Positions 1,794-18,003 of a stretch of 64,000 nt of DNA are shown here, in pieces (the first letter of the stretch is position 1; the number at the start of each line of letters is the position of its first letter). The position numbers were made by a program, and so were the translations under genes. Origin of the DNA: Aurantimonas endophytica (lineage in GTDB: Bacteria; Pseudomonadota; Alphaproteobacteria; Rhizobiales; Rhizobiaceae); NCBI RefSeq assembly GCF_014196845.1, contig NZ_JACIEM010000001.1:310001-374000 (forward strand). The letters are read 5' to 3'. The notes beneath the pieces were generated by a model, which worked only from the letters and a program-made list of their open reading frames with translations, did no database searches and was not told the DNA's origin.

Positions 1794-4700
1794 ATGTCAG
1801 AAGCCGAAACTGCCTCGATCTACCAAAGCGATCTGCCAATCGAGGCTAAACTAGAGCGCGCCCGGACCGAGCTCCTAGACCTCTCCGCAAGGAACCGCCT
1901 GCTCAACGTTCCCCGCCTCTCGAAGGCGGCACGGACGATCGACATCATCGACGAGCGTTCTGCCGAGATCTACCGCCTCCTCGCGAAGGAAACGAAGGCT
2001 TTCACGTTCACCGCGGGGAGAGCGGACAGGGCGGGCGGCGAGGGCGCCGCAGAGGAGGACGAGGACCTTCCCGCCGTCGATCTCGCGCAGCCCGACGAAG
2101 CGGACGACGAACTCGACGAGCGGGGCAGGGCGAAGCGCCACCTCGACACCAAGCTCCAGACTCGGATGACGCCGAAGGGGCTCCAGAAGCGGCTTCTCGA
2201 CCTATACCACGACGCCCGGACACTGGAGGAGGAGCAGGGCGTCAACGTCCTCTTCCTAGCGCTTGGCATGCTGCGGTGGGTCGATCCAAACAACAAGGAG
2301 AACATCCGCCACGCCCCACTCGTCCTCGTGCCGGTCAAGCTCGAGCGCGGCACGGCCGGCGAGCGTTTTCGCCTCCGGGTCCGTCCCGAGGACCAGACTT
2401 CCAACCTTTCGCTGGAGGCTTACCTCGACCGGGTTCACGCCCTTCGCCTGCCGTCCTTCGAGGGCGGAGACGAGTTCGACCCCGAAGCGTACTTCCGCGA
2501 GGTCGCGGACGCCGTCTCCACGAAGGCCGACTGGTCGGTGCTGCACGACGACATCGTGCTCGGCTTCTTCTCCTTCTCGAAGTTCCTGATGTACCGGGAC
2601 CTCGATCCCGAAAACTGGCCAGCCGACGGGCGCATCACCGACCAAGCAACGATCCGGTCGCTCCTGTCCGACGGCTTCGACGCGGGCGAACCGCTCCTGT
2701 CCGACGACGAGAGGATCGACCGCCACATCGACCCCTCGGACATGCTCCATATCGTCGACAGCGACGGTTCGCAGACGCTCGCGGTCCACGACGTGCGTCG
2801 CGGCAGGGACCTCGTCATCCAGGGACCGCCGGGAACAGGCAAGTCTCAGACGATTGCCAACGTCATCGCGTCCGCCATCGCCGACGGGAAGACGGTCCTG
2901 TTCGTCGCTGAGAAGATGGCGGCCCTCGATGTCGTTAAGCGTCGCCTGGATAACGCCGGGGTCGGCGACGCATGCATTGAGCTTCACAGCAACAAGGCGA
3001 ATAAGCGCGGGTTCCTCGAGGAGCTACGCCGGACGTGGGAGCTTGGCTCTCCGCGCGGTGAATTCCCGTCGAGCCTCACGGGAAAACTGCGTGCGGCTCG
3101 AGACGTCCTGAACCTCCACGCCGAGCGGATGCACGTGCCGCACGAGGCTTCCGGCCTGACGCCCTACCAAGTGTTCGGTGCACTGACGAAACTTCGACAA
3201 GAGGGGCAACGACCCGTCGACCTGGCCCTCGATACCCCGACGCTTTGGTCACCGGACGATCTGACGTCGCGCCGCCGCCTTCTCGTCGAGCTTACCCAGC
3301 GCGTCGACGAGATCGGGCTTCCGAGAAACCATCCGTGGCACGGCGTCGGCCTCGACCTTGTCCTGCCCACGACGCTTGAGCGGTTGCTCCCTCGGATCGA
3401 GTCTCTTCGGTCGGCCATCTCGGATTTGGAGGCCGAGTACGGATCGTTGGCGAAGGCGTTGGAGGTGGAGCCGGAGCCCGTCACGTTCGACGATGCCGCG
3501 ATACTCCGGGAGCGCGCGGACATCCTTGCCCGCGCGCCGGACCTGTCGCCGGAAGCCTTTCGAGCGGACGCGTGGAATGACCGGCGAGAGGCCGTGGCAG
3601 AACTAGTCGGGGCTGGCGCGGACTTTCGTCAGCATGGCGAGTCCTTGGCCGGGTCCGTTCATCCGTCGGCGCTCGGCACGTCGATTGAGGGGCTCGAGGT
3701 TCAACTGGCCTGGCTGCCGCGCGAGTTTCCGGCCGCTGCTTTCGGGCGGGCCGCCGAACTTGCGGAATCGCTCCCGCGCCTTCGCGCCGAGGCAGACCGC
3801 CTCGCCACTGAACTCGGCGTGCCGGGCCCCGTCGACACGTTCGCCGCGGTGTCGCGCCTAGTAACGACGGGCGAGCGGGTGGCGGCAGCGCCCGACGCGA
3901 GTCCCGAGGCCTTTGCGGCCACGGTGTGGGATCAGGGCGTGGAGCAGGCCGGGGACCTCGCGGAGGCGGTTGAGACGCTCGAGCGGTCACGTGCGGCCAT
4001 GGGCGACCGAATACTCGACGTCGCCTGGACGACCGAGATCTCGTACGCCCGCCAGGCGTTGGCGACCAACACCGGATTCCTGAAGGCTCTCAACGGCGAT
4101 TACCGGAAAGCGAAGGCGCTGATGCGCTCGATCCTGCGCAACCCGGACATGCCGACGCAGGAGGTCGTCGAACTCCTCGACACGCTGATGAAGGGACAGG
4201 CCGCAGCCAAGCACGTCCAAGGCGACGATGCCTTCGGGCGCTCCGCGTTCGGCGCCGACTGGCGCGGGGAACGCTCCGCATCCGCTCCGCTTCTCGCCCT
4301 GGTAGCATGGATGCGCACGCTGCGCGGTCTTGGCGCCGAGCCGCGCCTCATCGCCGGCAGGCTCGCAGAGCGGCAGGTCGTCGGCGAGCACGCTGCGCTC
4401 GTCCTGCGCCACGTCGATGCTGCCAGGCCTTTGCTTGAAGCCCTATGGTCCGACCTTGGCACGGTGGCCGCCCCCGCGCTCGACAATGCGGTGTCCGCCG
4501 ACCGCGCACAACTTGACATGGTAGAGGCGCGGGCGCGGAACCTTGCATGGGCCGACGGCCTCTGCCGCACCATCATGCGCTCCGTTCCTGACGCACTGTC
4601 CGAGCGCCTCGACGCTGTTGCACGTGTTGCAGCCTGGCAGGCGGCGGCCCAGTCACTCCACGAGCGCACGGCTCTCGGGGCGGAGGCGTTCGGCCTCGTA

Positions 4701-7409
4701 TGGAAGGGTCAGGATTCGAACTGGGACGAGCTTGCCGCGGCCGTTGAATGGATCGGCGCGCATGGCGAGCTTCGGCATCTCGCCGCACGTCTTTCCGACC
4801 GGACTGGGATTGCCGAGCGGGCCGGGCGGGCCGTCGCCGCGTCGGCCAACGCGCAAGACGCGCTGGCCGACGTCGCATCCATCCTCTTGGCAGATCCCCG
4901 AAGCTTGTTCGGCGCCGACGGCTACGGAAATGTGCGGCTCGCGCGGTGCCGGGAACGCATAGAGACTTGGCTAGCCAACTCAGAGCAGCTTTCGAAGTGG
5001 GTCTCTTACCGCGAGCGGGCGGACCGGGCGCGAATGGACGGCCTGTCCGTGTTTGTCGACAATTTGGAAGACGGGCGTCTCGTTACGCCTGCTGCACTCC
5101 CGTCGTTTGAAATGGCGTACCATGAGGCGATCCTGTCCGAGCTGATCCGAGCTGATCCGGAACTCGGACGCTTCGACGGAAACCTACACGGACGGCATGT
5201 GCGCGAGTTCGCCAACCTCGATCTCGAGCGCATCAAGTCGGCGAGCCTCGAGGTCGTCCGTGCCCACCATCGTCGGATCCCGCCTCGCGACGGAGGCGTC
5301 GGCCCGGTGGGGATCCTTCGGGGTGAGATGGCCAAGCGCAGCCGCCACATGCCGATCCGCCAGCTCATGCAGCGGGCGGGACCGGCTGTCCAGGCACTGA
5401 AGCCGGTCATGATGATGAGCCCGCTTTCGGTCGCCCAGTTCCTGACGCCCGGCAAAATGACCTATGACCTCCTCGTCATGGACGAGGCTTCGCAGATCCA
5501 GCCCGTGGACGCGCTCGGCGCCATCGCCCGCGCCCGGCAGGTCGTCGTAGTCGGCGACGAACGCCAGCTCCCGCCAACCAAGTTCTTCTCCAAGATGACC
5601 GGCGGATCAGAGAGCGACGACGAGGAAGAGGGTGCGCAGGTCGCCGACATAGAGAGCATCCTTGGCCTTTTCACCGCCCGGGGTCTGCCGCAGCGCATGC
5701 TGCGCTGGCACTACCGCAGCCGTCACCAGTCGCTGATCGCGGTTTCCAACACGCAATTCTACCAGAACAAGCTCTTCATCGTGCCGAGCCCCTACACGAC
5801 CGAAGCGGGTATGGGCTTGCAGTTTCATCACGTCCCCGACGGCATTTTCGATTCCGGCGGCACGTCCGTAAACGCGGTCGAGGCCCGTACGGTCGCTGAA
5901 GCTGTCATCCGGCATGCGAAGACGCATCCCGAGCAGTCGCTCGGTGTCGCAACCTTCTCCGTATCTCAAAGGCGGGCGATCCAAGATGAGCTCGAATTTC
6001 TTCGACGCCTGAACCCCGACACAGAGGAGTTTTTCCACGCCCATCCATCGGAGCCGTTCTTTGTCAAGAACCTTGAGAACGTGCAGGGAGACGAGCGCGA
6101 CGTCATCATGATCTCGGTTGGCTACGCCAAGAACGCGCAAGGGTACATGGCCATGCGATTTGGTCCCCTCGGCGCACAGGGCGGCGAGCGGCGACTGAAC
6201 GTCCTCATCAGCCGCGCGAAGCGGCGGTGCGAGGTGTACGCGTCGATCACCGACGAGGACATCGACCTCGAGCGTGGTAAGGGCGCCGGTATCCTCGCCT
6301 TCAAGCTCTTCCTTCATTACGCCCGCACGGGGCGGCTTTCGATCGCGCAGGCAAGCGGGCGCGAGATGGACAGCGTTTTCGAGGAGCAGGTGGCATCCGC
6401 GCTTCAGGCGAAGGGCTACCAGGTCCATCCGCAGGTCGGCATTGCTGGGTTCTTCATCGACCTCGCCGTGTCGGACCCCGAGCGCCCGGGACGCTACCTC
6501 ATTGGCATCGAGTGCGATGGCGCGTCCTACCATTCCTCACGCTCCGCCCGCGACCGCGACCGCCTGCGCCAAGCGGTGCTTGAGGACCACGGCTGGATCA
6601 TCCACCGCATCTGGAGCACCGACTGGTTTCAGCGGCCACAGGAGCAACTCGAGCGTACCGTTGCCGCCATCGAGGCGGCAAAGGCGGAGCTCGACGATCG
6701 GATGAAGCGGGGCATTGCCGCCCATCGCGCGGTGCCCATCGAGATTGTCACGGTCGACCGAGGCGAGGTCACCGAGGTCGGGCTCGGAGACGCCGTTCCC
6801 GAAGACGGTACGGCCACGGCCGCTTATATTGAGGCTACCCTGACCCGCCCGGGACTATACGAGCTGCACGAGACGCCGGTCGGTAGGATGGCAGATCTCG
6901 TGGCTCAGGTTGTCCAGGTCGAGTCGCCCGTCCACGTCGACGAGGTCGTCGCCCGCGTCCGCGACGCTTTCGGGCTCCAGCGCGCCGGGGCGCGAATCCA
7001 GGCCGCGGTGGAACAGGGCGTCGAACGGGCGGCGGCCCATCGCGGGATCGTGCGGGAAGGGGGGGTTCTCTCCCTTCCAGACACCGAAGCGACCGTCCGG
7101 GATCGGCGGAATGTGCTGTCGCCTGGTTTGCGGAAACCGGAAACTCTCCCGCCCGCCGAACTGAGTGTCGGTATCTTGCGCATCGTCACCGACAACTTCG
7201 GCGCGACGGACGACGAGGTGGCGGCGACGCTGTCGCGCCAGCTCGGCTTCAAGGCGACCAGCGCCCAGCTACGTGCGGTTATCGGTTCCGCCGTCGAGGT
7301 CTTGCTGAAAAAGGGACGGCTGCAACGTCAAGACCGGATGCTCGTGCCTTCGCCCGCTCTCGCTGGCGATGGCGCGACGCCCCAGGAAACGGCGCAGGTT
7401 TCACTCTAA
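1794..7409 (+). CDS. DUF4011-helicase-Vsr/DUF559-like-DUF3320 giant protein (Hhe-type anti-phage candidate)
   Basis: This 1871-residue multidomain protein starts at the ATG at 1794, behind AAGGCG; an upstream in-frame ATG at 1704 only adds low-quality sequence. Domain order: an N-terminal DUF4011 region (residues about 20-300, with LDLSARNRLLN at the front), superfamily 1 helicase motif I GPPGTGKS at 344-351, a long helical insertion, the Walker B motif DEASQ at about 1230, motif III GDERQLPPT, motif IV region HYRSRH at about 1305, and motifs V/VI ENVQGDERD (about 1427) and NVLISRAKRR (about 1467). A Vsr/DUF559-like endonuclease fold follows at about 1528-1615, with FFIDLAV and GIECDGASYH as the D and ExD-type catalytic strands, and a DUF3320-like tail. 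This layout matches the single-gene fusion called hhe in phage-defence surveys. A nuclease-like gene follows 130 bases downstream. All helicase motifs look intact. Confidence 0.9.
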   Translation: MSEAETASIYQSDLPIEAKLERARTELLDLSARNRLLNVPRLSKAARTIDIIDERSAEIYRLLAKETKAFTFTAGRADRAGGEGAAEEDEDLPAVDLAQPDEADDELDERGRAKRHLDTKLQTRMTPKGLQKRLLDLYHDARTLEEEQGVNVLFLALGMLRWVDPNNKENIRHAPLVLVPVKLERGTAGERFRLRVRPEDQTSNLSLEAYLDRVHALRLPSFEGGDEFDPEAYFREVADAVSTKADWSVLHDDIVLGFFSFSKFLMYRDLDPENWPADGRITDQATIRSLLSDGFDAGEPLLSDDERIDRHIDPSDMLHIVDSDGSQTLAVHDVRRGRDLVIQGPPGTGKSQTIANVIASAIADGKTVLFVAEKMAALDVVKRRLDNAGVGDACIELHSNKANKRGFLEELRRTWELGSPRGEFPSSLTGKLRAARDVLNLHAERMHVPHEASGLTPYQVFGALTKLRQEGQRPVDLALDTPTLWSPDDLTSRRRLLVELTQRVDEIGLPRNHPWHGVGLDLVLPTTLERLLPRIESLRSAISDLEAEYGSLAKALEVEPEPVTFDDAAILRERADILARAPDLSPEAFRADAWNDRREAVAELVGAGADFRQHGESLAGSVHPSALGTSIEGLEVQLAWLPREFPAAAFGRAAELAESLPRLRAEADRLATELGVPGPVDTFAAVSRLVTTGERVAAAPDASPEAFAATVWDQGVEQAGDLAEAVETLERSRAAMGDRILDVAWTTEISYARQALATNTGFLKALNGDYRKAKALMRSILRNPDMPTQEVVELLDTLMKGQAAAKHVQGDDAFGRSAFGADWRGERSASAPLLALVAWMRTLRGLGAEPRLIAGRLAERQVVGEHAALVLRHVDAARPLLEALWSDLGTVAAPALDNAVSADRAQLDMVEARARNLAWADGLCRTIMRSVPDALSERLDAVARVAAWQAAAQSLHERTALGAEAFGLVWKGQDSNWDELAAAVEWIGAHGELRHLAARLSDRTGIAERAGRAVAASANAQDALADVASILLADPRSLFGADGYGNVRLARCRERIETWLANSEQLSKWVSYRERADRARMDGLSVFVDNLEDGRLVTPAALPSFEMAYHEAILSELIRADPELGRFDGNLHGRHVREFANLDLERIKSASLEVVRAHHRRIPPRDGGVGPVGILRGEMAKRSRHMPIRQLMQRAGPAVQALKPVMMMSPLSVAQFLTPGKMTYDLLVMDEASQIQPVDALGAIARARQVVVVGDERQLPPTKFFSKMTGGSESDDEEEGAQVADIESILGLFTARGLPQRMLRWHYRSRHQSLIAVSNTQFYQNKLFIVPSPYTTEAGMGLQFHHVPDGIFDSGGTSVNAVEARTVAEAVIRHAKTHPEQSLGVATFSVSQRRAIQDELEFLRRLNPDTEEFFHAHPSEPFFVKNLENVQGDERDVIMISVGYAKNAQGYMAMRFGPLGAQGGERRLNVLISRAKRRCEVYASITDEDIDLERGKGAGILAFKLFLHYARTGRLSIAQASGREMDSVFEEQVASALQAKGYQVHPQVGIAGFFIDLAVSDPERPGRYLIGIECDGASYHSSRSARDRDRLRQAVLEDHGWIIHRIWSTDWFQRPQEQLERTVAAIEAAKAELDDRMKRGIAAHRAVPIEIVTVDRGEVTEVGLGDAVPEDGTATAAYIEATLTRPGLYELHETPVGRMADLVAQVVQVESPVHVDEVVARVRDAFGLQRAGARIQAAVEQGVERAAAHRGIVREGGVLSLPDTEATVRDRRNVLSPGLRKPETLPPAELSVGILRIVTDNFGATDDEVAATLSRQLGFKATSAQLRAVIGSAVEVLLKKGRLQRQDRMLVPSPALAGDGATPQETAQVSL

Positions 7410-7538
7410 GCACGGACACCGAAGCACGCTATGGCGCGCTTCGGTCGAGTGCAGGAGCAAGCATACCCGGTCTTCCGATATGCGTCGCCCGTGTGTGTTC
7501 TTGCGCGATCCGTCGTCCTCCTGAATCGAGTGCCGTTC

Positions 7539-8597
7539 ATGTCACGCCAGCACAGTGCTCCCATCCTAATCGCGGGATCATCCGCGGTTGCGCTCAAACC
7601 CCTGAGCTTCGGAAGCGGTGCGGGGGCAGTCAGTGAGGCGGACATCCAAAGCCTCGTTCATGATTTCCCGGGATCGCTTCCCGTTGCAGAGATCGACCCG
7701 ATGTTCGCGGGCGCGGTCTCCATTTGCCGAGAGTTGGTGACTCCTGCGGGCGCGATCGACAACTTGTTGGTTACCCCGTCCGGGTTGCCGATCCTCGTCG
7801 AGTGCAAACTCTGGCGAAATCCGGAAGGACGTCGCGAGGTCGTCGGACAGATCCTTGACTATGCCAAGGAGCTCAGCCGCTGGACGTCTGCCGATCTCCA
7901 GCGTGAGGTAGGGCGTCGGCTTGGTAGACAGGGCAACGCTGTTCTCGACCTCGTGCGGTCGGCGGACGCGTCCGTCGACGAGATTGAGTTCAACGACGCC
8001 CTTTCCCTAAACCTACGCCGCGGGCGGTTCCTCCTTCTAATCGTCGGTGATGGGATCCGCGAGGGCGTCGAGGCCATTGCCGAATACCTGCAACGCCACG
8101 CGGGTCTCCATTTCTCACTCGGTCTCGTGGAGATGCCCGTCTATGTAATGCCGAACGGCGACAAGTTGGTCGTTCCGCGCGTGCTCGTCCGGACGGCGAT
8201 TGTGACGCGCAATGTCGTTGCGGTACCCGACGGTCACGTCGTACAGGACGACGCCTCGGACGGGGAAAGCCACGAGGTCGATCCCGACCGCCAAGCCCTC
8301 GGTGATATCCAGCAGGCGTTTTGGAAGGAGTTCCTCGCCGTCCTTCGAATTCGTGATCCAGAACAGCCGATCCCACGTGCCCCGAGGCAGGGATACCTGA
8401 ATGTCATGATGCCCGCGCCCGGTGGAAGCAGTTGGCTGACCGTCTACCGTGACATGCGGAAGAACGAGGTCGGGCTGTTCCTGTCAGCGACCCGCAACAG
8501 CGCTGGGGAATACGCTTCCGACAGATTGGTCGAGGATTTCGCTGCCGTGGGTCCGCAACTCGGTGGAGCGGCCGAAGTGACCAAGGATACGTACTGA
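7539..8597 (+). pseudogene. PD-(D/E)XK nuclease-like protein, C-terminus cut off by IS insertion
   Basis: The reading frame is open from an ATG at 7431, but the conserved-looking part begins near the ATG at 7539, giving 352 residues. A restriction-like core is visible with D74 in IDNLLVTP, the ECK triplet E88-K90 in LPILVECKLW, and Q104 in VVGQILDYAKEL, the usual D...ExK...Q arrangement of NucS/DUF91-like and related nucleases. A later segment (FWKEFLAVLR..., about residues 272-330) resembles the domains that follow such nucleases in DUF4268-type proteins. The stop TGA at 8595-8597 is itself the first three bases of the insertion sequence, so the native C-terminus is lost. The truncated protein keeps its catalytic core and could still be made. 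It lies just behind the giant helicase gene, which suggests a shared defence role. Confidence 0.7.
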
Positions 8598-8612
8598 CGT
8601 TGCCCCTAATTT

Positions 8613-9542
8613 TTATCCAGTCGTGAGTTCGCTCCCGGCGGTTTTGCTGAGTTCGTTTGCGGGTTGAGCGACGGGCGTAGGCGCGGAGCCATTGCTGAGG
8701 CGCAGCGTCGGCGCCCGTTGCGGATGGAAGGTGGCGGCGAAGGCGGACGGGGTGCTCCAGCCGAGTGCGGAATGGGGACGGGTCGTGTTGTAGTCGGCCT
8801 GCCATCGGGCCAGCATCGCTCGCGCATGGTGCAGGGACGAGAACAGCGTCTCGTTCAGAAGCTCGTCGCGAAGACGGCCGTTGAAGCTTTCGATGAAGGC
8901 GTTCTGCGTCGGCTTGCCCGGGGCGATGTAGTGCCACTCGATATGCGTCTTGTCGGCCCAGGCGAGGATGGCATTGCTGGTGAACTCGCTGCCGTTGTCC
9001 GAGACGATCATTGTCGGCTTGCCATGGCGGGCGATCAGCCGCTCCAGTTCGCGTGCGACGCGAGTTCCGGAGAGCGAGGTGTCGGCAATGAGCGCCAGGT
9101 TCTGGCGGGAGCAGTCGTCGACGACCGCCAGGATCCGAAAGCGGCGACCATCGGTAAACTGGTCGGAAACGAAGTCTAGCGACCAGCGCTCGCCCGGCGC
9201 CAGAGGCAGCCGGATCGGCGCCCTGGTTCCGATCGCCCGCTTGCGACCGCCGCGGCGGCGCACCGCCAATCGCTCCTCGCGGTAGAGACGGAAGAGCTTC
9301 TTGTGGTTGACCGCGTGTCCCTCCCGCTTCAGCAGGACATGCAGGCGCCGGTATCCAAAACGCCGACGCTCCCGGGCAAGGGCGACCATGCGCTCGCGCA
9401 GGGCCTCGTCCTGTGGTCGGATGGAGCGATAGCGGACCGTCATGCGGCAGCAGCCGATGGTTTTACACGCCCGCCGTTCGCTCATCTCGTGGCGCTCCAT
9501 GAGATGGGCGACGGCACTCCGCCTGGCCGCGGGCGTCACCAC
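8613..9542 (-). CDS. IS3-family transposase OrfB (DDE integrase)
   Basis: This 309-residue protein has an HTH_21-like N-terminus ([20 protein letters not shown]) and an rve-type DDE core. The three acidic residues are visible in [20 protein letters not shown] and [14 protein letters not shown], and the typical [15 protein letters not shown] block follows near the C-terminus. It starts at a GTG at 9540-9542 and overlaps the end of OrfA by 7 bases in the -1 frame. That is the arrangement used for programmed frameshifting to make the OrfAB transposase. No internal damage is seen, so the element could be active. Confidence 0.92.
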
Positions 9543-9802
9543 TTCTTTCCCAGAAGATCCTTCAGGGCGACATTGTCTAACATCGCGTCCGCCAGCATCC
9601 GCTTCAGCTTGGCGTTCTCATCCCCAAGCGCTCGCAGGCGCCGCGCCTCGCTGACGTCCATCCCGCCGAACTTGGCTTTCCATTTGTAGACGCTCGCATC
9701 GCTGACCCTATGCTTGCGGCATAGCTCGGCGACCGGCACTCCCGCCTCGTGCTCCTTCAGGATGCCGATGATCTGTTCTTCCGAAAAACGACTGCGCTTC
9801 AT
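9536..9802 (-). CDS. IS3-family transposase OrfA
   Basis: OrfA is 88 residues and starts at the ATG at 9800-9802, preceded by AGAGGA at 8-base spacing; the longer frame from 9838 would begin inside the terminal repeat region. [20 protein letters not shown] and the following [20 protein letters not shown] form the HTH_Tnp_1 helix-turn-helix. A leucine-rich coiled coil follows ([19 protein letters not shown]), which normally mediates dimerisation. Its end overlaps the start of OrfB. Together they form the transposase of the element at 8595-9866. Confidence 0.92.
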
Positions 9803-9866
9803 GTCCTGGTCCTCTCGATGGGCCAGAACGAACTTCAAACTGGATTAGGCAGAGGGGGCAACGTCA

Positions 9867-10543
9867 TAGGCTCCGCGACGCCTCAGGAAATCTATCTTTG
9901 GGCCTTCAAGGTCCATATTGGCCTGATACACCGGAACGCGTCTCTGAAGGTCGACATCCGCTCACCGTCCTCCCCGTTCTTCTGGGAAATCGGCGACTTC
10001 GGTTCGGAGATCTGGCTGTTCCGACGCCTGTACCAAGTTTGGTCCATGGGAGGGACGATTTGCCCGGATCCGTTCGGTACGGTGCTGCGCTCGAGGGCGC
10101 TCACGAGAGCGCCTTCTTTCGACTTCGTACACAACCTGCAATCGGGAACGTTGTTCTTTCAGCTAGGGGAGGAAGTGGTTTTCGTCGCCCTCTACGACAA
10201 GGGAGCGCTAGCGTCGTCCAATGTCGCCGAGCAGCTCGAGTACCACCGGGACTTTCTGTCGACCGCCCCGTCCCAAGACGGGGACGACCTTGGATGGGCG
10301 GCGCAGCGTGTATGGGCGTGCGAGACTGCATACTTTCTATACCGTGCGCGGACGGGGTTCAGCTACGTCAGCAGCGAAGAAAGCTTCACTGCTGTCCCGG
10401 ATCTGTTCAGGCCGGCCCCCCGGTCGAGCGATGCGGAGGAGTACGCCCGCTTCTGCCTATCCTTCGGCCTGAAGCTGGAGACATTCGGTGGCGAGGCGGG
10501 CCACCACTACTCGAACTCACTCCGGAAGACATCAGCCGTTTAA
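9867..10543 (+). pseudogene. Unidentified gene, 5' end removed by the insertion sequence
   Basis: The frame can be extended leftwards to 9749, but those bases belong to the insertion sequence. The native part begins right at its right end and gives about 225 residues to the stop at 10541-10543. It reads as real protein, for example EIYLWAFKVHIGLIHRNASL, FFWEIGDFGSEIWLFRRLYQ and FDFVHNLQSGTLFFQLGEEV. This resembles the C-terminal half of some proteins that carry an HNH-type nuclease at their N-terminus, but I cannot confirm that, and the front part is missing. The sequence does not continue the nuclease-like gene on the other side of the insertion, so material between them was probably deleted. 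Confidence 0.55.
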
Positions 10544-10579
10544 GGGATGGCGGCAGCGCGACTTAGCCGATCACCCTAG

Positions 10580-10797
10580 GTGCCGGATGGCAGACCGACT
10601 ACAACACCACCCGTCCCCATTCCGCACTCGGCTGGAGCACCCCGTCCGCCTACGCCGCCAGCTTCCATCCGCAACGGGCGCCGACGCTGTGCCTCGGCAA
10701 GGGCTCCGCGCCGACGCCCGTCGCTCAACCCGCCAAAGAACTCAGCAAAACTGCCGGAAGTGAACTCACGACTGGATAAATCTTCGGGACAACGTCA
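10580..10797 (+). mobile_element. 3' remnant of a second IS3-family element
   Basis: In the plus direction these bases translate to [20 protein letters not shown], then [13 protein letters not shown], and finish AGSELTTG-stop. This closely matches the last 63 residues of OrfB at 8613-9542 with a few substitutions. It is followed by an end repeat, GGGACAACGTCA, finishing at 10797. Everything upstream in this copy is missing. It is a related but not identical element, inverted relative to the complete copy, so the two OrfB ends face outwards around the fragment at 9867-10543. Confidence 0.85.
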
Positions 10798-10828
10798 CCC
10801 TCGGTAGACGTAGACGAAGTCCAAAGAT

Positions 10829-13705
10829 TCATGCAACGGGGATCCCGCTCACCCGGTACTTTCGCGCGCGCAGGTCGAAGGCGTCCGCGCCTCCCTCCAT
10901 CACACGCGTAATCTCATCTCTAACCTTCGGCGTCTCGATCGCCCCATCGACACCAATCCTAACTCGCGGCGCATCCTCCCGAGGGCGGTCCTCGGCTACG
11001 GACGCGACCATCATGACGATCTTGTCCGCATCCCCGTTCACAACGAGGTTCGGATTGTGGGTCGCAAATATGAGCTGTCGTCGGGACTTCGATGTCCTTA
11101 TCAGTCGAACGATGTCCATTACCACGCGGTTGTCGAGATCGTCCTCCGGCTGGTCGATAATGAGGGAACCCGCCTCTTGGTTGAGAAGGAGCCTCAAAAG
11201 CGCCGATGCTTGCTGACCTGCCGAAGCCTGTTCGAAGGGTATATCCGTTCCCTCGCTGACGTAGGTTAGGATGATCCTGTCCTGGGGTGTCGACGAAAGA
11301 AGAAGTCCTATGCTCTGATCCGTGAGGTTCGCGTAGACCTTAGTGGCTTGCTGGGCGGTTAGCGTCGACGTGCGGTCGCCTCCAACGGCTTCTCGGATAG
11401 CCTCGATAACTTCCGGTCCTGGCTCAGCCGGGCTTCCCGCTTTGACCTTCGAACGATAGATGTCGATCCACTTTTCAGTGAATTCCGCCCAGTCACCTTC
11501 AGTTCGTTCGTTGTGAATCTGGGCTACTCTCTCGGAGCAGAATTGTTCGGCGTCACGAAGCCGACTTCCTTCGAACAATGACATCAACGAGGTGACGCGA
11601 TCGCTCGGTTTGCGATCGCGCTTAACCCGTGCCTTCAACATTCCGCCGGACTTGTCGCGAACCTCGTCCGCGGTCCGCGCAAGGAGCTGCTGACGCTCGT
11701 CCAGCAATTCCAATAGTCTGTTTCTCGACAGCGCCAGCCGCTCGACGGCCGGCCTCGTCTTCTGCTCGTTGTCAGAAGCCCGTCCGCCGCTCGCCTCAGC
11801 ATCCTTAAGCTGAGCTGCAAGCCGTTCGCTTTCGGCGATGAGGGACCCGTGTTCGATCTGCCGCTGCTTGGACTCGTCGTAGCGCGCTTTGAACTCCGCT
11901 TCCCGTTGCTCATAGGCGAGCGAGACGCTCTGACGAACCTTGAGGAGGTCGTCCAGCGCGCCCAAGGCGCTTCGCGCGGCCTCGGCTATCTTCGACTTCG
12001 CTCCAATGACCGAGCCGCGTAAAGCCTCCAGCTCGTCGAACTCAAATGCGTCCGCGTATCGCGACGAATCGACATGAAGAACCAAAGAGAGCGTCTCCTC
12101 GACCGTCTTCCTGTCTTCGGCAACGGAACGACCGATCTCTTCCAGAAAATTTCGGGCGCGACCATAACGTGGGGCGGCCGCCAGCACGTCGATATCGCCT
12201 TGTTGAACTCCGCCGTCTTGCAGTTTTATCCGCGATACTTCTAAGCGGCGCTTGATGTCCTCGACGACGCTTCTCGCTTGGGCTAGTTCGAGTTCGGCCT
12301 GCCAGTGGCCCGCAACCCCCTGGAGGTCGGTCGTGAGAACTCTCTTCGCGTTGACGATTTCCCTTTCGATGCGACGCCTGTCCTCAATCACTTCGGCGGC
12401 GGCGATGCCCGTGATGTTGTCCGCAGCAGACTGCGGATCGAGCATCGTCGTCGAAAGTTCCTTTTGGTGAAACGCACGGGCGGGAAAGTGAAGTTGAGCC
12501 GCCGCGACGGTGATGCGGTCCTCGGTGCCGTCGGCATAGGTGACCTGGATCTCTTCCGGCCGCTCGCCCTTTCGACACCAAGTCTCCGTCACGCCTCCAC
12601 GTTCCAGCACCACTCGGACCCAGCCGTGCACCAGCGTGTCCTCAATGAGCTTCGCCTCTCGATCCCGCCTCTTCTTGGTGTTTGAGTCGGCACTGGAGAT
12701 GTCGCCTTCCGACTTTCCAAGGCCAAAGCGGAGGTACTCGAGCATTGAGCTCTTGCCTGAGCCTCTTCCGCCGATGAGGGCCGTGAAGCCGTCGTTGAAA
12801 GTGAGGCGTACTGGAGCGGAGCCGGTGAGCGTCGACTGGACCTCCATCTCGACAACTCGGTCGGTCGGGACCTGCGGAGCCGAGTGAGTGATCCGGGCCT
12901 CGTCCGCGAGGAACGCTTGCCTGAAGCCCTCGAGAGAGTTCTCGCCAAGCTTTATCCAGCACTCGTGATGGCCGAGTCGGTCCCAAGTTGCGCGTTTGTT
13001 GTCACCGGTCGCCAGAATGGCTCGGCGACGGTTCCCCCAATCAACGAGTCGGCCTTCGATCTTGTCGACGGTGACGCTGTCCAACTCGGAACGTGGGCAT
13101 TCGATATAGATGCCGTCGACAGGTATGTCTTTCGCTCGCGCGCTGAAGCCCTCTCGGTTCAGAGATTTGTGTGCGTCCGGCCGACTGAAGTGCGGCAGAA
13201 GAAGGGTCGCCGAATTCAAGATCGGCTCGTTCGCGATCTTCTCGATGAGGTCCTGCAACGTCAGGCCGCAGTCGTTCGCCCGCGGTCCCTTTGCCGCATG
13301 GTCATCATGACGAGCGATCCCGGGAAGGTGATGGAGCATCCGGTCCCACACGTCTTTCGAGGATGTCGGCTCGAATAGAACCAGGCATTGGACGCTATCC
13401 TGGCACGTAACCTCTACACCGGGTAGGACGATCAACGAATCCCGCGCATCGAGTGCTGCTGCCGCCGAGACAACATGTGGCACCATGGCCATGTCGTGAT
13501 GGTCGGTCAGCGCCACCAAAGCGAGGCCTTTTCCCCGCGCGGCGCTGACGAAGTCCGTTGCCCAGTTGCGCCGTGCCTCTTCAAGCTCCGGAGTTCCTCC
13601 GGGGAGGTCTGGCGATCCGGACCAGCCATAGTCGCGTGGTGAATGGCACTGAACGTCGATCCTCATCCAAACCGCGCCAGGATGGCATCCAACGGTCTCA
13701 GTCAT
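10829..13705 (-). CDS. PHP-domain/SMC-like ATPase (Ppl/TrlF-type, anti-phage candidate)
   Basis: A 958-residue protein. The start ATG at 13703-13705 is fixed by an AGGAGG at 7-base spacing. An N-terminal PHP phosphoesterase domain is shown by IDVQCHSP (D17, H21), ALTDHHD (D68-H70), LPGVEV (E98), LPHFS (H172) and ATGDNKR (D235). The canonical first HxH pair appears as QxH, which I believe is common in this subfamily. An ATPase of SMC/RecF type follows: Walker A GGRGSGKSS at 312-320, a long coiled-coil-rich middle (about 430-700), a signature-like ASAGQQASALL, Walker B SLIIDQPEDDLD and a switch histidine in FATHNPNL. This architecture matches ppl, a single-gene phage-defence system, and proteins labelled TrlF family. 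It is transcribed towards the IS remnant and ends 32 bases from it. Confidence 0.85.
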   Translation of the reverse strand: MTETVGCHPGAVWMRIDVQCHSPRDYGWSGSPDLPGGTPELEEARRNWATDFVSAARGKGLALVALTDHHDMAMVPHVVSAAAALDARDSLIVLPGVEVTCQDSVQCLVLFEPTSSKDVWDRMLHHLPGIARHDDHAAKGPRANDCGLTLQDLIEKIANEPILNSATLLLPHFSRPDAHKSLNREGFSARAKDIPVDGIYIECPRSELDSVTVDKIEGRLVDWGNRRRAILATGDNKRATWDRLGHHECWIKLGENSLEGFRQAFLADEARITHSAPQVPTDRVVEMEVQSTLTGSAPVRLTFNDGFTALIGGRGSGKSSMLEYLRFGLGKSEGDISSADSNTKKRRDREAKLIEDTLVHGWVRVVLERGGVTETWCRKGERPEEIQVTYADGTEDRITVAAAQLHFPARAFHQKELSTTMLDPQSAADNITGIAAAEVIEDRRRIEREIVNAKRVLTTDLQGVAGHWQAELELAQARSVVEDIKRRLEVSRIKLQDGGVQQGDIDVLAAAPRYGRARNFLEEIGRSVAEDRKTVEETLSLVLHVDSSRYADAFEFDELEALRGSVIGAKSKIAEAARSALGALDDLLKVRQSVSLAYEQREAEFKARYDESKQRQIEHGSLIAESERLAAQLKDAEASGGRASDNEQKTRPAVERLALSRNRLLELLDERQQLLARTADEVRDKSGGMLKARVKRDRKPSDRVTSLMSLFEGSRLRDAEQFCSERVAQIHNERTEGDWAEFTEKWIDIYRSKVKAGSPAEPGPEVIEAIREAVGGDRTSTLTAQQATKVYANLTDQSIGLLLSSTPQDRIILTYVSEGTDIPFEQASAGQQASALLRLLLNQEAGSLIIDQPEDDLDNRVVMDIVRLIRTSKSRRQLIFATHNPNLVVNGDADKIVMMVASVAEDRPREDAPRVRIGVDGAIETPKVRDEITRVMEGGADAFDLRARKYRVSGIPVA

Positions 13706-13808: not shown

Positions 13809-13992
13809 GGTCGTCGTCACTGGAGGTAGTCAGATCCTCCGAAATCCTGTCTGGAGGCCGCTTTCAAGACCGACCAGAACTGCGACACACCTATCGTGCC
13901 ACGATGGTGTCATTTCAGTGCCCTGAGGCAAACCAGCGTGCCGCTGAGATCAACGCAACACTCGGTATTTTCAGGCTTCTGCTTTTAGCGCC

Positions 13993-16900
13993 TTAGCTAC
14001 AGCCGCTCGTCGAGCCGCACGTATCGCACTTCAGGCAGGTGCCGTTGCGCACCATGGTGAAGTTGCCGCATTCCGAGCAGCTTTCGCCGGTGTAGCCCTT
14101 CATCATCGCGATGGTCCGGCGTTCGGCGCTGGAGACGTTGGGCGCGGTGCCCTGCGCGACGTTGGCCGTGTCGCGGTCGCTGGCCGGGAAGGCCAGCGGC
14201 TGGTCGAACAGGCCCTGCGCCGGGGTCACGTCGGCGATCGGCGCCGGCTCGTCGATCGGCGCCTGCTCGTACTCGCGCTTGAACGCCGTGGCGCCTGCGG
14301 TGACGGCAGCCACCGGGGCGCGGGCAGTGGTCGCCGCCGGGGCGCGGACGGTGCCGGCGGTTGTCGCCGGGCGGCCGGCCGTGTTGGCGGCGGTGACCAC
14401 GCTCTTCACGCTCGCCACCGGTGCTGCGCCGCCGGCCGAGCCCTGCGGCTCGCTCGAGGACACCAGCCGGAAGCGCGACGTCTGGCCGCGCACCATGCCG
14501 TGCGACACCGGCATCGGCGCCGGCTTGTCGCCATCGACGCCGCGGCCGATGGTCGAGGCACCGAAATCCTCCGGCTGCACGTGAGCGAGATCGTGCCGGT
14601 CGAGATAGGATACTGCCAGCTCGCGGAAGATGTAGTCGAGGATCGACGTGGCGTTCTTGATCGCCTCGTTGCCCTGGACCATGCCGGCCGGCTCGAAGCG
14701 CGTGAAGGTGAAGGCCTCGACATATTCGTCCAGCGGCACGCCGAACTGCAGGCCGAGCGAGATGGCGATGGCGAAATTGTTCATCATCGCGCGGAAGGCG
14801 GCGCCTTCCTTGTGCATGTCGATGAAGATCTCGCCGAGCCGTCCGTCGTCGAACTCGCCGGTGCGCAGATACACCTTGTGGCCGCCGACAATGGCCTTCT
14901 GGGTATAGCCCTTGCGCCGGTTCGGCAGCTTCTCGCGGTCACGGACCACCTTCTCGACGATGCGCTCGACGATGCGCTCGGCCACCTGCGCGGCCTGGGC
15001 AACGGGCGGCGCGGCGATGAGAGCGGCGGTCGCCATCTCGACGACGTCCTCGTCCTCGTCATCCTCGTCGGCGATCAGCGAGGCGTTGAGCGGCTGCGAC
15101 AGCTTCGAGCCGTCACGGTAGAGCGCGTTGGCTTTCAGCGCCAGCTTCCACGACAGCATGTAGGCGGCGTTGCAGTCCTCGACCGTCGCGTCGTTCGGCA
15201 TGTTGATGGTCTTGGAGATCGCCCCCGAGATGAACGGCTGCGCCGCCGCCATCATGCGGATGTGGCTGTCCACCGAGAGGTAGCGCTTGCCGATCCGGCC
15301 GCACGGATTGGCGCAGTCGAACACCGCCAGGTGCTCGTCCTTGAGGAAGGGCGCGCCTTCGAGCGTCATCGCGCCGCAGACATGGATGTTGGCGGCGTCG
15401 ATGTCCTTGCGGCTGAAGCCGAGCGCCGGCAGCATCTCGAAGGAGAAGTCGTTCAGCTCGGCATCGGTGAAGCCCAGCACGTCGCGGCAGAATTCCTCGC
15501 CGAGCGTGAACTTGTTGAAGACGAACTTGATGTCGAAGGCGGCGCCCAGCGCTGCGTTCAGGCTCTCGATCTGCGCGTCGCCGAAGCCCTTGGCCCGCAG
15601 CGAGGACGGATTGACCGCCGGCGCCTGGTTGAGATTGCCGTGGCCGACCGCATAGGCCTCGATCTCGGCGATCTGGCTTTCCGAATAGCCGAGCGTGCGC
15701 AGCGCGTCGGGCACCGCCCGGTTGATGATCTTGAAGTAGCCGCCGCCGGCGAGCTTCTTGAACTTCACCAGGGCGAAGTCGGGCTCGATGCCGGTCGTGT
15801 CGCAATCCATGACCAGGCCGATCGTGCCGGTGGGCGCGATGACCGAGACCTGGGCGTTGCGGAAGCCGTTCTTCGAGCCGAGCTCGACGGCTTCCGTCCA
15901 GGCTGCCTTGGCGCGGCCGGACAGCCGCTTGTCCTTCACCGATGCGTGGTCGAGCGGCACAGGATCGACCGCCAGGCCCTCATAGCCATTGGCGATGCCG
16001 TGCGCGGCGCGGGCATGGTTGCGCATGACGCGCAGCATCGGCTCGGCGTTGCGCTCGTAGTCCGGGAAGGCGCCGAGCTCGCCGGCCATCTCGGCCGAGG
16101 TGCGGTAGGCAACGCCCGTCATCAGCGCCGAGATGGCGCCGCAGATGCCGCGGCCCTCATTCGAGTCGTAAGGGATGCCGGCGGTCATCAGCAGGCCGCC
16201 GATATTGGCGAAGCCGAGGCCGAGCGTGCGGTAGTCGTAGGAGCGCTGGGCGATTTCCTTGGACGGGAACTGCGCCATCAAGACCGAGATCTCGAGGACG
16301 ATCGTCCACAGTCGCACGGCATGCTCGAAGGCCGGCGCATCGAAGCGGCGCAGGCCATCGGCGGTCTTCTCCTCCTGGAACTGGATGAGGTTCAGCGAGG
16401 CGAGATTGCACGCCGTGTCGTCGAGGAACATGTATTCCGAGCACGGGTTCGACGCGCGGATGCGGCCAGCCGTCGGGCAGGTGTGCCAGTCGTTCATCGT
16501 CGTGTTGAAGTGCAGGCCGGGATCGGCCGAGGCCCAGGCGGCGTAGCCGATCTGCTCCCACAGCTCGCGGGCTTTCAGCGTCTTCGCCACCTTGCCGTCG
16601 GTGCGCCGGATCAGGTTCCAGTCGCCGTCCTGCTCGACCGCCCGCAGGAAGTCGTCGGTCAGGGAGACCGAGTTGTTGGAGTTCTGACCGGAGACGGTGA
16701 GATAGGCTTCCGAGTCCCAGTCGGTGTCGTAGACCGGGAATTCGAGGTCGGTGTAGCCCTGGCGTGCGAACTGGATGATGCGCTTGATGTAGTTTTCCGG
16801 CACCTGGGCGCGCTTGGCGTCCTTGACGGCGCGCTTCAGCGCCGGGTTCTTCATCGGGTCGTGGCAGTCGCCGTCCGGGCCTTCGCAATTGACGCAGGCC

Positions 16901-17874
16901 GACAGGATCGCCTTGAGGTGCTTCGACACGGTCTTCGAGCCGGTGACGAGGGCTGCGACCTTCTCTTCCTCGCGGACCTTCCAGTTGATGTAGGTCTCGA
17001 TGTCGGGGTGATCGATGTCGACGACGACCATTTTGGCGGCCCGGCGCGTCGTGCCGCCGGACTTGATGGCACCGGCCGCGCGGTCACCGATCTTCAGGAA
17101 GCTCATCAGGCCGGACGACTTGCCGCCGCCCGCCAGCTTCTCGCCTTCACCGCGCAGATGCGAGAAGTTCGAGCCGGTGCCCGAGCCGTACTTGAACAGG
17201 CGCGCCTCGCGCACCCACAGATCCATGATGCCGCCCTCGTTGACGAGGTCGTCGGCCACCGACTGGATGAAGCAGGCGTGCGGCTGCGGGTGCTCGTAGG
17301 AGGTCGCCGAGCGGGTGAGTTCGCCAGTGCGGTAGTCGACGTAGAAATGGCCCTGGCTCGGACCGTCGATTCCGTAGGCCCAGTGCAGGCCAGTGTTGAA
17401 CCACTGCGGCGAGTTCGGCGCGACCTTCTGAGTCGCCAGCATGAAGGCGAGCTCGTCCATGAAGGCGCGGGCATCGTCCTCGGAGACGAAATAGCCGCCC
17501 TTCCAGCCCCAATAGGTCCAGGTACCGGCGAGGCGATCGAAGACCTGCCGTGCGTCCATCTCGGAGCCGTAGCGCTGGTCCTCGGGCAGCGCCGCGAGCG
17601 CTGCCTCGTCGGCGACCGACCGCCACAGGAAGGAGGGAACGTCGTTCTCCTCGACCTTCTTCAGCTTCGCCGGAACACCCGCCTTGCGGAAATATTTCTG
17701 CGCCAGGATGTCGGATGCCACCTGGCTGAACTGCGCCGGCACGTCGATGTCGGCGAGCCGGAACACCACCGAGCCGTCCGGATTGCGGATCTCGCTCGTG
17801 GCCTTCCGGAAGGCGACCGACTCATAGGCACTTTCGCCGGCCTTGGTGTAGCGGCGCTCGATCTTCATTCCCAT
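13993..17874 (-). CDS. nrdJ: Vitamin B12-dependent (class II) ribonucleoside-diphosphate reductase
   Basis: About 1293 residues, reducing ribonucleotides to deoxyribonucleotides with adenosylcobalamin as radical source. Family signatures include [13 protein letters not shown], the substrate-site block [20 protein letters not shown], and [21 protein letters not shown] proline/alanine-rich linker precedes a C-terminal zinc-ribbon (CSECGNF and CLKCDTCGS) that ends in Cys-Ser. The length fits the large alphaproteobacterial NrdJ type. Start choice: ATG at 17872-17874 ([10 protein letters not shown]) has AGGA ten bases upstream; the internal ATG at 17866-17868, giving MKIERRYT, is the form often annotated and cannot be excluded. 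An NrdR-box-like palindrome lies about 130 bases upstream. A long open frame on the opposite strand is a codon-bias shadow. Confidence 0.97.
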
Positions 17875-18003
17875 GACGGTCCCATCCTCGTATCGCAAAT
17901 TTGTTGCCGCGAAGGGTCGCCAAACCGGCGAAGTTTCCCCCTCCAGCCGGTCCGGCCCCTGAAATCGTCAGAATCACGCATCTTGTATGACGGCGGCCCA
18001 ACG

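Follow-up and report, generated by a model that had tools for sequence, protein, structure and literature searches.

Four elements lie within 12 kb near the start of the 64,000 nt stretch of Aurantimonas endophytica DNA analysed here (contig NZ_JACIEM010000001.1, positions 310,001 to 374,000; "the window"): the gene of a large helicase fusion, a nuclease-like gene directly behind it, an insertion sequence (IS) and a PHP-SMC ATPase gene. All were described in an earlier note made from the sequence alone, and all are confirmed by open reading frame (ORF) and profile scans. The locus raises the question of whether these genes make up a multi-gene defence system that has not been described, or an island of separate systems, the two possibilities given in that note. 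The analysis supports the second. With a probability of roughly 0.87, the window holds the nrdJ-side end of a strain-variable region with unrelated defence-type genes, in which the helicase, a member of the ProA (PDC-S37) family, is the one clearly intact and conserved single-gene system.

Family and anatomy of the helicase

The helicase ORF (1794-7409, + strand) encodes 1871 aa; an alternative start at the in-frame ATG 1704 would lengthen this to 1901 aa. It scores 1625.1 bits against the NCBIfam model of the anti-phage protein ProA (NF058533), above the cut-off of 1500. The Hhe model (NF042953), to which the protein had been assigned, yields 1052.8 bits against a cut-off of 2000. PADLOC likewise places PDC-S37 (1887 bits) far over Hhe (756 bits). 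The Hhe label was therefore rejected, as its curated cut-off is missed while that of the sister model is passed. None of 14 well-known genomes used as a control for the ProA model exceeds its cut-off, and seven match below it. Two ProA relatives that were scanned, L145 and L088, score like the window protein (ProA 1640 and 1624 bits, Hhe 1063 and 1042 bits).

The chain has the architecture of ProA, consisting of DUF4011 (residues 26-211, positions 1869-2426; Pfam PF13195, 3.2e-41), the two halves of a superfamily 1 (SF1) helicase (Pfam AAA_11 and AAA_12), a REase_MTES_1575 nuclease domain (residues 1529-1626, positions 6378-6671; PF18741, 2.2e-38) and DUF3320 (residues 1690-1736, positions 6861-7001; PF11784, 1.6e-16), all on the + strand. 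DUF559, to which the nuclease part had been likened, matches only below the Pfam cut-off. Conservation was scored over 61 full-length rows, i.e., 60 of the 71 named ProA-type loci plus the window, the 11 other loci being short or not placed; the same rows were used for the tree. The Walker A motif GPPGTGKS (residues 344-351, positions 2823-2846) and the Walker B or motif II sequence DEASQ (residues 1230-1234, positions 5481-5495) are kept in at least 97% of these rows, window included, as are the nuclease motifs, and D1556 and GIECDG (1571-1576) of the MTES_1575 domain are retained. Matches in PDB are SMUBP-2, Upf1 and DNA2, whose motors are classed as SF1B. They suggest that the protein joins an SF1B-type helicase motor, for DNA or RNA, to a C-terminal nuclease of its own.

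Comparison with five Aurantimonadaceae homologues gives ratios of nonsynonymous to synonymous substitution rates (dN/dS) of 0.084-0.113, and the gene is under purifying selection. In the tree, ProA groups with the Aurantimonadaceae with a support of 100 (quick method), and the nearest named helicases are from that family. The distribution is patchy; seven congeners were searched and none has a ProA match. A pattern scan of IMG/VR returned 600 candidate stretches, none of which was confirmed as a ProA relative.

The mode of action can be proposed from domain anatomy and family label, because of which an attack on phage DNA intermediates would be expected in this host. The SF1 motor, similar to those of Upf1 and SMUBP-2, may engage phage DNA, probably at ends, flaps or replication intermediates; DUF4011 may serve as the sensor or regulatory domain; and the PD-(D/E)XK-type (MTES_1575) domain at the C-terminus would cut the DNA so engaged.

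The neighbors of ProA differ between loci. Clustering of neighbors covers 67 of the 71 named loci (L115, L116, L130 and L133 are not placed), and the flank count was made on all 71. An SbcC-like ATPase ORF lies 3′ of the helicase on the same strand in 12 of the 67 placed loci, found in Microvirga and Mesorhizobium only (L084, L085, L087, L088, L089, L091, L095, L119, L122, L123, L124 and L143), and is accompanied in 11 of them by an SbcD-like metallophosphoesterase ORF; the family names come from Pfam in L088 only. Identity of these pairs between the two genera is only 28% and 34%, which suggests two separate recruitments. Six of the 12 loci have identical helicases, and genes of the SbcC type are frequent across the order, in 51 of 199 genomes. 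In two Aureimonas genomes, a 586 aa ORF begins 4 bp after the ProA helicase gene (L081:13606-15366 and L145:15728-17488); Pfam identifies it as a GHKL-type ATPase in L081, and by eye the L145 ORF is similar.

The adjacent nuclease gene and its truncation

The longest ORF behind the helicase gene, at 7431-8597 on the + strand, has no Pfam or NCBIfam hit. Its probable start is the ATG at 7539, 129 nt after the helicase stop, and the gene (7539-8597) would thus encode 352 of about 410 residues. A catalytic core, D74...E88-C-K90 (positions 7758-7808), is present, and D74, E88, K90 and Q104 do not vary across the 11 aligned homologues, in the pattern D-x13-E-x-K...Q. A profile search of PDB gave endonuclease NucS as the only match up to E 1 (E 0.0087). 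The structure model, built from three sequences, is poor starting at residue 218; in the core, residues 31-170, the predicted local distance difference test score is 75-92 by block, except for 62 at residues 91-100. Top Foldseek hits of this model were 2vld and 5gke, with a probability of 0.99-1.00, and no match was found under E 0.001. From the invariant motif, the profile match and the fold hits, the gene product is a predicted free-standing NucS/EndoMS-like PD-(D/E)XK nuclease.

This nuclease family is also represented on plasmids, close to genes for phage packaging and in further islands of the defence type; two of its plasmid members are located in such islands. Relatives at L156, L157 and L160 are near a ParB_N-DNA methylase, a DUF5681 protein and a terminase-like protein, a prophage-like setting (the families were named in L156, and the other two loci were assigned through similarity to it). 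Relatives were also found among IMG/VR sequences (2 of 46 candidates), and none was found in the phages collection with the Bosea homologue as query.

The pairing of helicase and nuclease does not recur. Neither the nuclease nor a complete TrlF gene, TrlF being the family of the ATPase gene (see below), is present at any of the 91 ProA-type loci, of which 71 are named and 20 are from the class level. In the class sample of 385 genomes, taken as one draw for the helicase and the nuclease search since the handles agree, only the genome analysed here and G286 have both on one contig among the matches listed. In G286 the two are on opposite strands, and the nuclease is without the catalytic core in the alignment. 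Fifteen of 17 nuclease carriers, again among the matches listed, are without ProA on the same contig. A helicase-nuclease pair was therefore rejected as a system, and with it falls the suggestion of an undescribed multi-gene system. The earlier note had named two results that would speak against its proposal, of which the lack of recurrent linkage was obtained; the other, no match to the Hhe profile, was not, as that profile does match the helicase, below cut-off.

The 3′ end of the nuclease gene is formed by the IS. The TGA that terminates the ORF is made up of the three outermost bases of the IS3 end TGACGTTGCCCC. A copy in the congener G007, 96% identical in nt and 98% in aa, extends 58 residues past the stop in the window, and plasmid relatives in Rhizobium and Bosea likewise extend past it. 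As the stop codon is supplied by the IS, the gene is truncated at its 3′ end by the IS3 element, with the loss of about 58 residues. The sequence to the right of the IS was considered as a continuation of the gene and rejected, since nothing in the window significantly matches the tail of the congener copy (best E 1.4). The G007 copy (L163:12365-13838) is itself cut at its 5′ end, where it adjoins the end of an ISL3 transposase gene. An IS can thus create a false operon, the supposed partner gene here having an IS end as its stop codon. The IS-supplied stop, the likely start at 7539 and the inverted IS fragment described below had escaped the earlier note.

Insertion sequence, TrlF gene and chromosomal setting

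The IS is located at 8595-9866 on the − strand, with OrfA at 9536-9838, OrfB at 8613-9542 and shared ends TGACGTTGCCCC. OrfB scores 240.8 bits against NCBIfam NF033516 (cut-off 160) and OrfA 45.3 bits on the same model; the OrfA/OrfB transposase and the inverted ends place the element in the IS3 family. It is 78% identical in nt, over its full length, to an IS3 on an Aminobacter plasmid. By eye, no target-site duplication is evident. Adjacent to it, at 9867-10543 (+ strand), is the remnant of a plasmid-type gene, probably truncated at its 5′ end by the IS. The remnant has 68% nt identity over 98% of its length to the gene of a 324 aa hypothetical protein on the A. tumefaciens F2 plasmid, where transposase genes are nearby, and corresponds to the 3′ two thirds of that gene; the Pfam scan found no known family for it. 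A 216 bp inverted fragment of the same IS, 92% identical, follows at 10582-10797, between the remnant and trlF. The lack of a target-site duplication together with the inverted fragment points to IS-mediated rearrangement, and, as the fragment lies beside trlF, such a rearrangement probably brought trlF to its present place.

The trlF gene (10829-13705, − strand) is a separate, intact gene and encodes a PHP-SMC/ABC ATPase of 958 aa. It scores 453.1 bits against the TrlF model (NCBIfam NF045780, cut-off 350) and covers profile positions 2-944 of 944. The identification as Ppl was not borne out; against NF042955 the protein reaches 169.6 bits with a cut-off of 1000, and the Ppl label was rejected as far under its cut-off while that of TrlF is exceeded. 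The Pfam PHP domain alone is below cut-off (20.6 vs 26.4 bits). The ABC-type ATPase motifs GGRGSGKS, ASAGQQAS and LIIDQPEDDLDN are present.

These genes occupy one end, that next to nrdJ, of a chromosomal region that varies between strains. Its right edge is at the 3′ end of nrdJ (13993-17898, − strand, by Pfam), where nucleotide homology with the congeners G003, G002, G007 and G005 stops at 13984, 13991, 13995 and 13999, respectively. In G003, a close relative, the sequence that resumes 1.9 kb past nrdJ has its counterpart in the genome analysed here at a distance of 88.6 kb (G000:C1:235342-323984), with matching orientation. The region also holds an IS110 transposase, a sodium/hydrogen exchanger and a GGDEF protein. 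In G007, nrdJ and the nuclease gene share a contig and are about 39 kb apart, which suggests a variable site common to G007 and the window. In this genus, a variable site with defence-type genes thus adjoins nrdJ on its 3′ side. To the left of the helicase gene, an ORF at 800-1192 (130 aa) has a sub-threshold Pfam match to Glyoxalase_8 (20.8 bits, cut-off 23.7).

Alternative readings and known systems

Several observations weigh against the reading of an intact ProA among unrelated parts. Loss of the C-terminal 58 residues need not abolish a nuclease whose predicted catalytic core remains, and dN/dS between the G007 and window copies is 0.059, which places the nuclease under selection until recently. 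Synteny of helicase and nuclease in G007 is unreadable, as only 388 bp of contig precede the match, a stretch that includes an ISL3 transposase end. A distant full-length TrlF (30% identity) is present in one of seven congeners, G005. Only the end sequences underlie the putative IS rearrangement, and the presumed anti-phage role of ProA rests on the NCBIfam label, the naming paper not having been found in the literature. Literature searches on ProA, PDC-S37, TrlF and DUF4011 gave nothing of use. A DUF4011 gene is named as bordering a P. aeruginosa defence hotspot on the right (PMC10250203), and an hhe deletion strain is named elsewhere (PMC9391042).

If ProA and the adjacent gene were an undescribed two-gene system, the NucS-like nuclease would be a second effector loaded by the helicase. 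The common strand, the 129 nt gap, the intact catalytic core and the two plasmid relatives in defence-type islands are in favor of this. It is nevertheless very improbable, given the absence of the nuclease from all 91 related helicase loci, the class sample in which most carriers are without a listed same-contig ProA match, the IS that cuts the gene short and the nuclease domain that ProA already has. Joint movement of the three genes and the IS as a single mobile defence cassette is hardly more probable. All of them are within the region absent from G003, between conserved flanks, yet none of the 91 loci has the nuclease or a complete TrlF gene, the IS evidence points to rearrangement, and the segment separating the two IS copies appears to come from a plasmid.

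That ProA-type helicases are a common core taking up varied adjacent accessory nucleases or ATPases, so that "single-gene" ProA often sits in modular operons, is unlikely; the NucS-like nuclease here, the SbcD/SbcC-like pairs and the GHKL ATPase in two Aureimonas would be its examples. Hhe for the helicase and Ppl for the ATPase would account for strong partial matches to both models (1053 and 170 bits). As both remain below their curated cut-offs, those of the sister models ProA and TrlF are exceeded, and PADLOC ranks PDC-S37 well ahead of Hhe, this pair of names is very improbable. The locus with an intact ProA thus resembles an ordinary mosaic of separate parts, a known single-gene kind amid the debris of other systems, and a multi-gene system is unsupported.

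Among known systems, NucS/EndoMS (2vld, 5gke) shares the nuclease-domain fold and motif with the putative window nuclease, although the fold figures are weak (E about 0.01, template modelling score 0.2-0.34) and the window protein is without a Pfam or NCBIfam name. PADLOC PDC-S11 weakly matches the nuclease and three relatives (E 3.7e-5 to 4e-8), and filing it there was rejected, the match being too weak. Hhe and Ppl are described systems, with DUF4011, an SF1 helicase and a Vsr-like nuclease in a single chain in Hhe, and PHP plus an SMC-like ATPase in Ppl. The window ATPase has the Ppl layout, but at 170 bits vs a cut-off of 1000; it resembles TrlF over its full length and is 43-44% identical to labelled TrlF on Bradyrhizobium and Paracoccus plasmids. 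Its first PHP motif, usually HxH, is QxH, as in the aligned relatives. The helicase shares with Hhe, a sister family, a long partial match and the one-chain layout, but at 1053 bits vs a cut-off of 2000. Hhe vs ProA and Ppl vs TrlF are thus two assignments easily made from architecture alone, which are corrected here. With ProA (NF058533) and PDC-S37 the helicase shares the full architecture, with 1871 aa here and 1903 model positions, and passes the cut-off. It adds a member to the ProA family, about 85-87% identical to the homologues of Aurantimonadaceae and of ordinary domain order.
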